Source of the DNA: an uncultured Roseiflexaceae bacterium
GTDB taxonomy: Bacteria; Chloroflexota; Chloroflexia; Chloroflexales; Roseiflexaceae
Direction: 5' to 3'
Assembly: GCA_903932805.1 (NCBI GenBank)
Contig: CAIZHO010000114.1
Location: 1-12,742, forward strand
DNA: 12,742 nucleotides
Both the position numbers and the translations under genes were made by a program. Under the pieces are notes generated by a model, which did no database searches, was not told the DNA's origin, and saw only the letters and a program-made list of their open reading frames with translations. Position 1 is the first letter of the stretch, and each line of letters begins with the position of its first letter. This document shows, piece by piece, positions 7,663 through 11,559 of this stretch.

Positions 7663-8399
7663 CACGCACCCGTTGGATTCTGCCTGCCATCACATTTGGT
7701 GCGATGAGTGGTGTCGCTGCAGCCTGCGCGTTGCCGTACATCATGACTCTTAATCCGCCGAGCGCCGAGCAGGCACTCCCGCCATTTGCCGTTTTGCTGC
7801 TCGTGACGTTTCTGCAAAATACCCTCTTCGCAAGCGTCATTGCATATCTTGGATTGCGTGCGGGGCAGACACTGAGCATCGGCAGTGCGTTGTTTGATGC
7901 ATCGGTGCGCGCCATGGGTACGCGCCGAACCTACAGCCTTGCCGTGAGTGTAGGGTTGCTTGCAGGATTGCTCGTATGGGGGCTTGACAAGGTCTTTTTG
8001 CCATACATGCCGTCATTGCCGCAACTGAATGATGTTTCAATCACGGTGCGTGCCGCAGCGATTTTGTACGGTGGCGTTGCCGAAGAAGTGTTGCTGCGCT
8101 TGGGTTGTTTGAGTGTAGTCGCATGGGTCTTGGTGCGCATGCGATTGGCTCCATCCGTGGCATTGACGGGTGCGATCGTTATTGCAGCGTTGTTGTTTGG
8201 CATCGGTCACCTCCCTGCCATGGCTGCGATTGTCCCTTTGTCCTCTATTGTCGTGTTTCGTACCCTGTTGCTGAATGCATTACCAGGGCTTGCGTTTGGG
8301 GTGTTGTACCGACGGTATGGCATAGAGCATGCGATTGTTGCACACACCTGTGCAGACATTGCGTTGCTGTTGATTGTCCCAAGCATAAGAATCTCGTAG
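7659..8399 (+). CDS. CPBP-family intramembrane glutamic endopeptidase
   Basis: Membrane protein of the CAAX protease/Abi (CPBP, Rce1-like) family, 246 aa with about 6-7 hydrophobic segments. The three family motifs are present: EEVLLR (E142, E143, R147), FGIGH (F180, H184) and HTCAD (H229, D233), which form the intramembrane catalytic site. Bacterial members cleave membrane-associated substrates, and some act in bacteriocin self-immunity; the substrate here is unknown. AAGGAG (7646-7651) lies 7 bases before the ATG, inside the end of ruvX, so translation is probably coupled. The stop codon TAG (8397-8399) is itself part of the GTAG that opens the first copy of the downstream palindrome array, so the C-terminus may have been set by insertion of that repeat (inference). 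Family call is secure. Confidence 0.88.
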   Translation: MTRTRWILPAITFGAMSGVAAACALPYIMTLNPPSAEQALPPFAVLLLVTFLQNTLFASVIAYLGLRAGQTLSIGSALFDASVRAMGTRRTYSLAVSVGLLAGLLVWGLDKVFLPYMPSLPQLNDVSITVRAAAILYGGVAEEVLLRLGCLSVVAWVLVRMRLAPSVALTGAIVIAALLFGIGHLPAMAAIVPLSSIVVFRTLLLNALPGLAFGVLYRRYGIEHAIVAHTCADIALLLIVPSIRIS

Positions 8400-8698
8400 G
8401 TCGCCGCCATGGTGGCGACAAGAGCATGCCCCCGGCGTACGGTATTTGTCGGTCGCCGCCATGGTGGCGACGGGATTACGCCCCCGGCGTACGGTATTTG
8501 TCGGTCGCCGCCATGGTGGCGACGGGATTACGCCTCCGGCGTACGGTATTTGTCGGTCGCCGCCATGGTGGCGTCGGGGATTGATTGTGGCCGGGTGGGT
8601 AGGGTAGGTCGCCGCCATGGTGGCGACAGGAGCATGCCCCCGGCGTACAGTGTATGTTGGTCGCCGCCATGGTGGCGACAGGAGCATGCCCCCGGCGT
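8396..8698. repeat. REP/BIME-like array: six near-palindromic 20-mers with exact 52-bp period
   Basis: The core GTCGCCGCCATGGTGGCGAC occurs at 8400, 8452, 8504, 8556, 8608 and 8660; copy 4 ends in GTC instead of GAC. Every start is exactly 52 bp from the next. The core is an imperfect palindrome whose one non-pairing position would be a G-U wobble in RNA. Each core is preceded directly by GTNG: GTAG in copies 1 and 5, GTCG in 2-4, GTTG in 6. The 32-bp intervals are near-identical in 1, 2, 3 and 5 and partly present after copy 6; several contain a second hairpin (TACGCC-CCC-GGCGTA at 8477-8491). Interval 4 (8576-8607) is unrelated in sequence but the same length. The array fills the space between the converging protease and RAYT genes. 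GTAG plus a palindrome is the layout of bacterial REP elements. I see no gene in this 305-bp stretch. Confidence 0.9.
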
Positions 8699-8704
8699 CC
8701 CGAG

Positions 8705-9226
8705 TCATCTGCGCCGCCGTTCTTCACGCTCATGCCAGCGTCGCGGATTGTTGAGGATATATTGGGTCCTCTGGTCATATTCGAACTGGTTGCGGATGAT
8801 GCGGTCCATGAATCCCGGATACCAAAAGCTCATCTTTTTGCGCTTGACACTCTCGTCTATGCCCCGTGTGACTGCAGCTTTGAAAGATCCCACCGCCTGG
8901 CTCAAGAGAAATTCTGATGCTCTGCTTTCAACGGTCTCGCCGTCTTTGCCAGACGTACGGGCACGCGGAGCATTGGCCGTTATCTCGATAATTCCATGCA
9001 CGTGATTCGGCATCACAACATACGTATGTAGGACAAGACCCGGATAACTGTATGGGATTTGTTCCCAACAGTCGACGGCGATGACGCCACTTTCGTTGTG
9101 TGCCATCTGCGCATCGACAACGCTCCCAAACACTCTTCTGAAATCCCTGACCGTTGTCGTGACGAAGTAATACCCTGGACTCGAATAATCGAATTCTGCG
9201 AGACGAAGCGATTTTTTGACATGCAT
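8705..9226 (-). CDS. REP-associated tyrosine transposase (RAYT), Y1/HUH transposase family
   Basis: Single-strand DNA transposase-like protein of the Y1_Tnp (IS200/IS605 TnpA-related) superfamily, 173 aa. N-terminal signature LRLAEFDYSSPGYYFVTTTV; HUH metal-binding motif MPNHVHGI with H75 and H77; SFKAAVTRGI; then C-terminal DRIIRN...YILNNP, where Y156 is the likely nucleophile by analogy with YIENQ-type motifs (Y150 is an alternative). RAYTs are domesticated single-copy enzymes linked to REP palindromes, and a palindrome array abuts the 3' end here. The start at 9226 is chosen because AGGAGGTGA (9231-9239), a full anti-SD complement, lies 4 bases before it (7 from the AGGAGG core). A start at 9250 would place this site inside the gene. 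The frame is complete with no stop and the catalytic residues are intact, so it may be active. Basic RRRR tail before TGA. Confidence 0.88.
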   Translation of the reverse strand: MHVKKSLRLAEFDYSSPGYYFVTTTVRDFRRVFGSVVDAQMAHNESGVIAVDCWEQIPYSYPGLVLHTYVVMPNHVHGIIEITANAPRARTSGKDGETVESRASEFLLSQAVGSFKAAVTRGIDESVKRKKMSFWYPGFMDRIIRNQFEYDQRTQYILNNPRRWHEREERRRR

Positions 9227-9253
9227 GGTGTCACCTCCTGGCAACACCATAGC

Positions 9254-9289: not shown

Positions 9290-9322
9290 CAAAAAACCGG
9301 TGTTGCCAAAGGCAACACCGGT
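9290..9322 (-). terminator. Intrinsic terminator of the minus-strand operon
   Basis: Perfect 12-bp stem (9311-9322 with 9296-9307), 3-base loop, and a T-run on the minus strand (complement of the A-run 9291-9296, the last A being in the stem). It lies about 20 bases after the stop codon of the DsbA-like gene at 9344. Its place downstream of the second half shows that the transcript is organised to include the region after the internal TGA. Confidence 0.88.
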
Positions 9323-9343
9323 CACCCTCCATGATTTCGACGC

Positions 9344-10003
9344 CTACGGTGGGTTCAGCAGCGTATCGATGATGTTTTTGAATACCGCATAGGGTTGTGC
9401 ACCGGCATACAGTCGGTCTTGGATGAGAAATGTTGGTGTGCTCCGAATGCCGATTTTCTCGGCGAGGGCCACGTCCGCCTTGATCTGGGCGAGATGGCGA
9501 TTGGTGGTCAAGCAACTATCGAAATCTGCCCGGTTTATACCGATGTCGCTGGCATAATTGCCGAACATGCTCAAGTCGTCGAGCGATCCATCACGCCATT
9601 CTTGGTCACGGGCACCATCGAACAGTTGTTGGCGCATCTCGCCGAATGCACCTTGTTCGGCCGCACAATTTGCTGCTTGGGCTGCCATCAATGCACCGGG
9701 ATGGATGGACATCAGTGGGTAGTCATACAGCTCGAGGTAGACCTTGCCGGTATCGACGTAGTCTCTCATCAATTGAGGGTACGTCTCACGGACGTACTGT
9801 TCACAGTATGGTCATTGATAGTCGCTGAATTCACGCATCACAATGGGTGCTTTGGGATCACCGAAGGCGCGTGGGTTTGGTGACCGTTCCGAGAGCAATG
9901 TCACCGGGCTTGCAGGGTCAACAACCGGTGCTGCAACGGGCGAGAGGCCACAACCTGCAAGCACTATCGCACAGACAATGAGGAGTGACGATGCGCGGAT
10001 CAT
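9344..10003 (-). CDS. DsbA-like thioredoxin-fold lipoprotein, probable selenoprotein (UPYC, in-frame TGA at 9812-9814)
   Basis: Read through one TGA, this is a 219-residue DsbA/BdbD-type thiol-disulfide oxidoreductase. Residues 1-18 form a lipoprotein signal with lipobox LAGC (C18), so it should be anchored outside the cytoplasmic membrane. After a linker, the family entry motif REFSDYQ is followed by TGA at codon 64, then PYC (C67): exactly where CPYC is expected. The frame continues without another stop through YVRETYPQL, LELYDYPL, AANCAAEQGAFGEMRQQLF and the cis-proline loop STPTF (P190) to the stop at 9344-9346. All that is missing is the first active-site cysteine. With the SECIS-like hairpin downstream, UGA is probably read as selenocysteine. 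Start ATG overlaps the upstream gene's stop (ATGA, 10000-10003). A nonsense mutation or base error is the alternative; a plain gene call would give two fragments (9812-10003, and a C-terminal part from about 9772 down to 9344). Confidence 0.72.
9779..9797 (-). promoter_or_regulatory. SECIS-like hairpin directly downstream of the in-frame TGA
   Basis: On the minus strand GTACGTC-CGTGA-GACGTAC forms a perfect 7-bp stem with a 5-base loop. The stem starts 15 nt after the TGA and the loop lies at 22-26 nt, with G and U as its second and third bases. Bacterial SECIS elements (for example in fdhF) sit at this distance, with a small apical loop having a G among its first two bases, usually followed by U. 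A competing small hairpin, TACTG-TGAA-CAGTA, covers positions 4-17 after the TGA and overlaps the first three stem bases. Confidence 0.6.
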
Positions 10004-10503
10004 GCATGTTCCGATCGACTGACATGCGGCAACCGGACATTGGTCGTACGGCCGACCATACCCGAGCCGTCGTCACCACAATACGGACAGATAGCCCATG
10101 TCAGGTCGATGACCCGATCGCAGGCTATACAGCGCCGGCGCAGCCCTGTATGGCAATGCGGGCAGAGGATGTATTCGTGATCAATGCCACGTTGACATTG
10201 AGGGCACACGAACTGTTCCTCGATATCATGGCGCAGGTATTCTTCTTCGAGCGACCGTTCGTATCGCTCGGCAATAGTCTGGCGCGGTCGCAGCAAGGTA
10301 TAAATGCCCAGGCCAGCAAACGGAATCAGCAGTGCCAGTGATACACCAAGCACCTGGAGGAGGGTTTCTTCGGTGCGTGCATGGATATCACGATACGTCC
10401 AAATGACGCTCGCCATCCAGAGCAGAACGACATACCCCGCTACGACCCATTTGAGCAAATCAAGAATAGTCCCGAGCACCCCGAGTGTTCCACCTATATC
10501 CAC
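10000..10503 (-). CDS. Membrane-anchored double zinc-ribbon protein of unknown function
   Basis: 167 aa. Two hydrophobic segments near the N-terminus (about residues 14-36 and 47-71) would anchor it in the membrane. A charged helix with many Glu/Arg follows (about 77-95), then four CxxC knuckles: C100/C103, C114/C117, C125/C128 and C139/C142. These make two zinc ribbons in tandem, resembling DZANK/zinc-ribbon modules. Such ribbons usually mediate protein or nucleic-acid contacts; no enzyme motif is visible and I assign no function. The start is GTG at 10503, because AGGGGAG lies 6 bases upstream. It lies 49 bases after the darA-like gene and shares ATGA with the DsbA-like gene, so it belongs to the tmk operon. 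Its topology (ribbons in the cytoplasm or outside) is not determined; if outside, the cysteines could be partners for the DsbA-like protein (speculation). Confidence 0.75.
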   Translation of the reverse strand: MDIGGTLGVLGTILDLLKWVVAGYVVLLWMASVIWTYRDIHARTEETLLQVLGVSLALLIPFAGLGIYTLLRPRQTIAERYERSLEEEYLRHDIEEQFVCPQCQRGIDHEYILCPHCHTGLRRRCIACDRVIDLTWAICPYCGDDGSGMVGRTTNVRLPHVSRSEHA

Positions 10504-10552: not shown

Positions 10553-10888
10553 CTACCCTAGGACACGCGTGACCGACTCTGCATTGAGCACGAATACCGT
10601 TGCTCCACCGACCTGGACTTCGACTGGCGTTGGAGGGTAGAATTCGCCGGATTCGGCAACCGGTGGCAACGGTGAAATGTAGCGTATGCGCATGTTGCAA
10701 TGCGTATGAATCAGCTGCATGACGGCGTCGACTTGGGTATCTTCGACAGCGATAAGCAGAGTGATATTGCCTTCGCGGAGGAACCCGCCTTCACTGCTGA
10801 TGCGTGTCACGCGATGGCTACGGGCGGTGAGTGCATCAACCAGGTCCCCGGCATCTTGTCGTTGGACAACGGCTATCATGAGTTTCAT
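10553..10888 (-). CDS. darA: DarA/PstA-type PII-like cyclic-di-AMP receptor protein (DUF970)
   Basis: Small cytoplasmic PII-like signalling protein, 111 aa, the usual length (~109). It starts MKLMIAVVQRQDAGDLVDAL; the hallmark SSEGGFLREGN lies at 31-41, then ITLLIAVED, and the C-terminal part has EFYPPTPVEVQVGGATVFVL. In Bacillus, Staphylococcus and Listeria this family (YaaQ/DarA/PstA) binds cyclic di-AMP as a trimer through the GGFLRxGN region and the long loops. Its direct output is still poorly known. The start ATG overlaps the tmk stop (ATGA, 10885-10888), so it is probably coupled to tmk; tmk-yaaQ is also the Firmicutes gene order. Ligand binding here is inferred from the family, not shown. 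Confidence 0.88.
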   Translation of the reverse strand: MKLMIAVVQRQDAGDLVDALTARSHRVTRISSEGGFLREGNITLLIAVEDTQVDAVMQLIHTHCNMRIRYISPLPPVAESGEFYPPTPVEVQVGGATVFVLNAESVTRVLG

Positions 10889-11559
10889 GGGGTGGTCCTT
10901 TCAGTGACCGAAGAAATCGCTCCATGCGCGGCATGCAAGAATGGCAAGACCGATGTACGAATGTGCGCAGCCAGTGCTTCGATAGATTGCTCTGCGTCAC
11001 AGGTGACCCAACGCGTGGGGTCAGCATTTGCGAGCATTTCATACCCGTGCGCTACACGTTGATGGAAGGCCAGTTCGTGTGCGTCGAGGCGATTCCATTC
11101 GATCGCAGACGCATCGGGATGAAGTTTGCGACGAAGACCAACTGCAGGATCGATGCGGAGCCAAATTGTTACGTGGGGCACAAGTCCCCCGGTCGCTTTG
11201 GTTGTCACGGTACGCAAATCTGCGAGGTCGCGTCCGAGCCCGTACCCTTGATACGCATACGTCGAATCTGCATACCGATCACAAATGACAATACCGCCTG
11301 CGGCAAGCTGGGGGCGAATGATTTGATTGACGAGTTGGGCGCGTGACGCCGAAAAGAGCAACGACTCGGCAGTCGGATCTATCTCAGTATTCTGCATGCC
11401 CAAAACGATCGAACGAATCTGGTCACCGATTGCCGTACCACCAGGTTCACGCACGTGACTGACCTGGTATCCGACCGACCGCAAATGTTCAGCCAAGAGG
11501 CGTGCTTGGGTGCTTTTGCCACACCCTTCGCTTCCCTCGAATGTGATGAACAATCCCAT
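10885..11559 (-). CDS. tmk: Thymidylate kinase (dTMP kinase)
   Basis: Cytoplasmic enzyme phosphorylating dTMP to dTDP with ATP, essential for dTTP supply; 224 aa, slightly longer than the common ~205-215. P-loop EGSEGCGKST at 8-17 (K15, S16), VREPGGT at 36-42, the DRY motif at 94-96 (CDRYADSTYAYQG) and the following dTMP-binding GYGLGRD. The central and C-terminal helices are as in the family. The ATG at 11559 has AAGGG four bases upstream and lies 24 bases after the R3H ATPase stop, so the two are likely cotranscribed. Its end overlaps the darA-like gene by four bases. All catalytic motifs are intact. Confidence 0.95.
   Translation of the reverse strand: MGLFITFEGSEGCGKSTQARLLAEHLRSVGYQVSHVREPGGTAIGDQIRSIVLGMQNTEIDPTAESLLFSASRAQLVNQIIRPQLAAGGIVICDRYADSTYAYQGYGLGRDLADLRTVTTKATGGLVPHVTIWLRIDPAVGLRRKLHPDASAIEWNRLDAHELAFHQRVAHGYEMLANADPTRWVTCDAEQSIEALAAHIRTSVLPFLHAAHGAISSVTERTTP

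Follow-up and report, generated by a model that had tools for sequence, protein, structure and literature searches.

The window analysed here, the whole 12,742-nucleotide stretch of contig CAIZHO010000114.1 from an uncultured Roseiflexaceae bacterium, contains a real selenoprotein gene, in which an in-frame TGA occupies the codon of the first active-site cysteine, and which adds a new subfamily to a known kind of selenoprotein. The product is predicted to be a lipid-anchored thiol:disulfide oxidoreductase of the DsbA fold; that it is a Sec-containing oxidoreductase is given a probability of about 0.95, judged from sequence. This reading draws on coding conservation, an exchange of Sec and Cys among relatives, a SECIS signal, the selenium machinery with the exception of tRNA-Sec, and the predicted fold. 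The features concerned are the following:

10885..11559, minus strand: tmk, thymidylate kinase gene.
10553..10888, minus strand: darA, cyclic di-AMP receptor gene, above the Pfam cut-off; its NCBIfam score is 118.6, with the cut-off at 140.
10000..10503, minus strand: double zinc ribbon protein gene, whose TGA stop overlaps the dsbA ATG (ATGA).
9344..10003, minus strand: predicted Sec-DsbA-like lipoprotein gene (dsbA), 219 codons and TAG, Sec at codon 64.
9950..9952, minus strand: Cys18 of the lipobox-like LAGC, seen by eye in the sequence.
9812..9814, minus strand: in-frame TGA, read as Sec and supplying the first residue of the UPYC active site, from the sequence and the homologue alignment.
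9803..9805, minus strand: Cys67, second Cys of UPYC, from the sequence; invariant in the A4 alignment.
9779..9797, minus strand: hairpin GUACGUC-CGUGA-GACGUAC, a bacterial SECIS whose apical loop (9790-9786) follows the UGA by 21 nt.
9434..9436, minus strand: Pro190 of the STPTF loop, invariant in the A4 alignment.
9295..9323, minus strand: terminator-like hairpin of 13 bp with a T run, 3' of the dsbA gene, from the sequence.

From 10003 to 9344 on the minus strand, one frame runs from ATG to TAG with the TGA at codon 64 as its sole internal stop, which confirms the claim of the preliminary description, made without a strand, that a single frame carries a single TGA at the first Cys of a CxxC motif. 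The TGA stands in the context YQ-U-PYC, with C as the next base, and the predicted product has 219 residues. Its short N-terminus includes a lipobox-like LAGC at residues 15-18, spotted by eye, and Pro190 of the STPTF loop is presumably the cis-Pro known from thioredoxin folds. The run of tmk, darA and the zinc ribbon protein gene ends with dsbA, and the terminator reported after the full frame was recovered as the hairpin and T run at 9323-9295; in the whole stretch, six terminator-like sites were found against 3.8 expected from shuffles. An Rfam scan of the window returned no match at the gathering threshold. Elsewhere in the window, a 52-bp unit (core GGTCGCCGCCATGGTGGCGAC) is repeated about six times at 8399-8698. 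It is adjoined by a minus-strand ORF at 8705-9250, which by eye resembles a REP-associated transposase, has no Pfam match and has a relative at this locus in five further genomes of the genus. At 1539-1689 the heptamer AACTGAT, or a variant of it, recurs about 20 times.

The gene was compared across 26 genomes of the family, 11 of which, including the genome that holds the window (hereafter the own genome), represent the genus. A relative of the window protein was found in all 26. The best match carries TGA in 15 of them, namely all 11 genus genomes and G001-G004 from three further genera; in the remaining 11 it contains no stop. In the codon alignment every TGA of the 15 genes falls in one column, and ten genomes have Cys at this codon at the same locus, so that the alignment of homologues proposed earlier as a check did return TGA or Cys in relatives. 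The locus check took in 25 loci, the best match of G007 being left out: darA and the zinc ribbon gene stand beside dsbA in 24, L023 running off its contig, and tmk lies inside the flank in 21. Because these darA and zinc ribbon neighbours are kept, the 15 Sec genes and the 10 with Cys are regarded as the same gene in the same place. A tree of 45 rows, paralogues included, needs four Sec/Cys changes, three of them forced by well-supported branches; Sec is not required at this site, since G005 and G008 have tRNA-Sec yet use Cys.

The source is a metagenome-assembled genome, fragmented into 635 contigs, in which a sequencing or assembly error at 9812-9814 might be suspected; its probability is nevertheless negligible, as the same TGA occurs in ten other genus genomes and four of other genera, and as all 18 public protein clusters with at least 57% identity among the matches listed start after the TGA codon. 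These 18 belong to the best 120 of at least 1790 matches and are all 141-145 aa long; with six more of 130-147 aa they make up the 24 clusters examined, every one of which starts after the active site. This shows an annotation gap, the nearest public clusters among the matches listed being fragments that lack the active site, much as the preliminary description had expected of standard pipelines.

Under translation table 11 the window frame is cut into ORFs of 63 and 142 codons, as would be the case in a pseudogene whose nonsense mutation happened to fall on the active-site Cys codon. Further disabling mutations in near relatives had been named in advance as evidence against the Sec reading, and one was found: L027, the G021 copy (1501-1650), contains a TAA six codons upstream of the UGA, the remaining frame being open, which may reflect either an error or early decay. 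This second stop affects one of 11 genus members and is absent from the others. Against the split frame and the L027 stop are set the recurrence of TGA at one codon in 15 genomes, the frozen hairpin codons described below and the selection acting on the codons beyond the TGA, and a pseudogene is highly improbable. The dN/dS ratio was compared in 11 pairs between the 24 codons before the UGA and the codons after it. Before the UGA, six pairs were usable and gave 0 to 0.11, the others being saturated; after it, ten were usable, with 0.04 to 0.12 in eight, and 0.22 and 0.25 in two pairs involving distant rows.

The SECIS-like hairpin that had been pointed out after the UGA finds support in frozen codons and in the covariation of paired bases. 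Its core is CGUC-CGUGA-GACG, and 13 nt, CGTCCGTGAGACG, are invariant in the 15 Sec genes. These genes share the same degenerate amino acid in 35 columns, of which four use a single codon, and these are the hairpin codons +7 to +10; random placement would set four frozen codons consecutively at the hairpin about once in 52,000, a figure that serves only as a guide since the rows are related. Stem pair 20-34 covaries (UA in eight genes, AU in six, broken in one), the fifth pair is broken in L028 and the seventh in 10 of 15. The ten Cys homologues, by comparison, lack the hairpin: two of their 60 such columns are codon-invariant, neither in the hairpin, and the same four stem pairs form in 42.5% of cells versus 45.2% in shuffles. 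A paralogue group of 15 further TGA loci can form a hairpin with the loop CGUGN in 14 cases and CGUUG in one (L098), five of the six pairs being changed on both sides while the loop is alike. The comparative signal is strong and single-sequence folding weak: folded on its own, the window sequence is only modestly ahead of its shuffles (z -1.62; 13 of 200 do as well), the z-score of single-sequence folds never goes beyond -1.9, L028 prefers another fold, and the L099 hairpin is not the minimum. The published bacterial SECIS (bSECIS) model has a loop of 3-9 nt with G in the first two positions, a spacing of 16-37 nt and an MFE of at most -7.5 (PMC13188914). The window hairpin agrees with it, having the loop CGUGA, a spacing of 21 nt and -9.5 kcal/mol over 42 nt; that of L027, at -6.7 kcal/mol, misses its energy limit.

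The own genome encodes SelA, SelB and SelD, which lends support to the Sec reading first proposed. SelA is present as two pieces at two contig ends, and SelD (G000:C143, L049:1232-1234) itself has an in-frame TGA, in ASCAGU, followed by a 6-bp hairpin with the loop CGGGU whose energy is no better than that of shuffles (z 0.13). Only the binning links the selenium contigs to this genome, and SelA identities do not part the groups sharply, the own SelA piece having 57-62% identity to four SelAs of the genus and 53-58% to four of other genera. The search for selC that had been called for succeeded in relatives, tRNA-Sec being present in 6 of 11 genus genomes, and failed in the own 635-contig assembly, where it was not found with Rfam scoring 150 and 108 of 229 candidates, nor near selA, selB or selD. 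BLAST of 3.1 kb around the G019 selC against the own assembly gave three matches, none over selC. Among rejected candidates, five sub-threshold RF01852 matches in the own genome are Leu, Arg, Gly, Arg and Tyr tRNAs, and a close-looking C85 match to the G019 selC region consists of an ATTCATC repeat only.

Thirteen loci scored above the Rfam cut-off, 11 of which ARAGORN confirms as tRNA-Sec, the other two being tRNA-Ser. In three of the 11 (L056, L057 and L058, in G019, G022 and G025), a dsbB or dsbB-like gene lies beside the tRNA-Sec gene within 1.5-kb flanks. Across the family dsbB occurs in 21 of 26 genomes, and the search of the own assembly did not recover it; since selC adjoins dsbB in relatives and neither was found here, the two may have been lost together as one missing segment. 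DsbD/CcdA, present in 24 of 26 genomes, was likewise not found in the own assembly, and the VKOR search, which covered the own genome, found none there. SelA was detected in 16 of 26 family genomes, weakly in G008 (48.8 bits). All TGA carriers but one have SelA or tRNA-Sec (14 of 15), the exception, G024, being 60% complete, whereas 8 of the 10 Cys carriers at the locus have neither, G005 and G008 having tRNA-Sec; 14 of 15 against 2 of 10 gives a Fisher p of 3e-4, a guide only, as the rows are related.

A product without selenium could arise if UGA were decoded as another amino acid or if tRNA-Sec were loaded with Cys, which is the residue in related genes. Such a product is very unlikely, though, given SelA, SelB, SelD and the SECIS signal, and given that 5 of 11 other window genes checked (tmk, the zinc ribbon gene, the 8705-9250 ORF, yqgF and an exchanger gene) end in TGA, so that UGA is not reassigned throughout.

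For a Sec-containing enzyme, the proposed mechanism would begin with SelB and Sec-tRNA binding the hairpin just 3' of the UGA, leading to insertion of Sec at residue 64, as the machinery, the SECIS signal and the conservation suggest. The signal peptide would then be cut and Cys18 lipidated, which, given the lipobox seen by eye, would leave the enzyme anchored at the outside of the cell membrane. There Sec64 would attack substrate thiols or disulfides and Cys67 would probably resolve the bond, a chemistry suggested by UPYC and the fold.

A selenolate is a better nucleophile, and an Se-S bond a weaker oxidant; for these reasons, and because an all-Cys DsbA-like paralogue (CPGC) is present in all 11 genus genomes, a reductive or isomerase role seems somewhat likelier than net oxidation. 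Alternatively, the protein may be a selenoprotein that works mainly with DsbB in net disulfide formation, rather than in reduction or isomerisation, and this is a serious contender at somewhat below even odds. DsbA and BdbD are among the nearest solved folds, and dsbB lies in the fetched flank of three of the 11 tRNA-Sec genes and is widespread in the family; against this role count, besides the genus-wide paralogue and the weak oxidising power of Se-S bonds, all-Cys paralogues close to dsbB in G004, G006 and G007 (motifs CPAC, CESC and CPSC) and the frequency in the family of DsbD/CcdA, a possible source of reductant that was not found in the own genome. Neither the genes around the paralogue nor a plasmid search, in which all 191 records were below 60% identity, gave a functional hint. 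More speculatively, and on balance doubtfully, selenium in the genus may serve an extracytoplasmic thiol-disulfide relay, in which UPYC and UGSC lipoproteins would work beside the all-Cys DsbA and be tied to DsbB, a proposal for which dsbB beside selC in three genomes is cited; if it is true, extracellular disulfide chemistry would be the chief reason for keeping the Sec system. The fixed locus, at which Sec and Cys forms interchange, provides a natural series for working out when selenium repays its cost beyond the cytoplasm.

With the TGA translated as Cys, the Pfam search returned Thioredoxin_4 (5e-31, residues 42-213) and DSBA (3e-12, residues 57-212), both spanning the TGA site, and a DsbA fold was predicted for the window protein with a pLDDT of 88.5; domain score, fold, xPxC motif and Pro loop together place it, by prediction, in the DsbA-fold family. 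Among the nearest solved sequences or folds are Corynebacterium diphtheriae DsbA/TsdA (4pwo, 7unn) and Bacillus subtilis BdbD (3eu3). Unlike the window protein, the 4pwo group has Cys rather than Sec at the first active-site position of the alignment, as BdbD presumably does. Cys orthologues from a Roseiflexus MAG (L106) and a Kouleothrix MAG (L107) share the darA-zinc ribbon-dsbA order and 45-47% identity with the window gene but have CPFC and no hairpin.

The preliminary description had regarded a UPYC lipoprotein beside tmk and darA as undescribed, a claim of novelty that proved too strong. Two reviews already list UxxC selenoproteins of DsbG-like (NF041057) and DsbA-like type (PMC13188914, PMC9312934), and NF041057, the closest family in the catalogue, carries the label (seleno)lipoprotein. 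A 2006 survey had counted three selenoproteins in Chloroflexi (PMC1794560), and the literature covered on Sec-DsbA-like proteins and on selenoproteins of Chloroflexi, Roseiflexus and Roseiflexaceae, with most subscription papers outside its scope, held no description of the window gene. Form 1 of the DsbA-like selenoproteins (PF01323; the Sargasso Sea family) resembles the window protein in having a DsbA-family domain and Sec first in UxxC (PMC13188914, PMC1088965). Form 1 corresponds to COG2761 in that paper, while the best Pfam match of the window protein is Thioredoxin_4, a distinction drawn from description, not sequence.

What is added is a Sec subfamily of DsbA-like lipoproteins, the window protein having no NCBIfam model above cut-off. 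Against NF041057 (Rcas_1661 family thioredoxin-like (seleno)lipoprotein, listed as DsbG-like) it scores 142.7 bits, under the cut-off of 190, and all 23 A4 members match this model (best E 1.8e-50). A second Sec lipoprotein of the own genome, with UGSC (L090, G000:C386:13783-14340), reaches 266 bits versus the same cut-off, and a TGA paralogue of the L090 group is present in 10 of 11 genus genomes. The tree splits the window group from the L090/NF041057 group with support of 99/97, which places the window protein as a sister of the NF041057 family, below its cut-off. The two are alike in being UxxC/CxxC lipoproteins with a related domain, but NF041057 members have UGSC, UTAC and the like, whereas the window protein is set apart by UPYC/UPFC, the tmk-darA locus and a separate clade.
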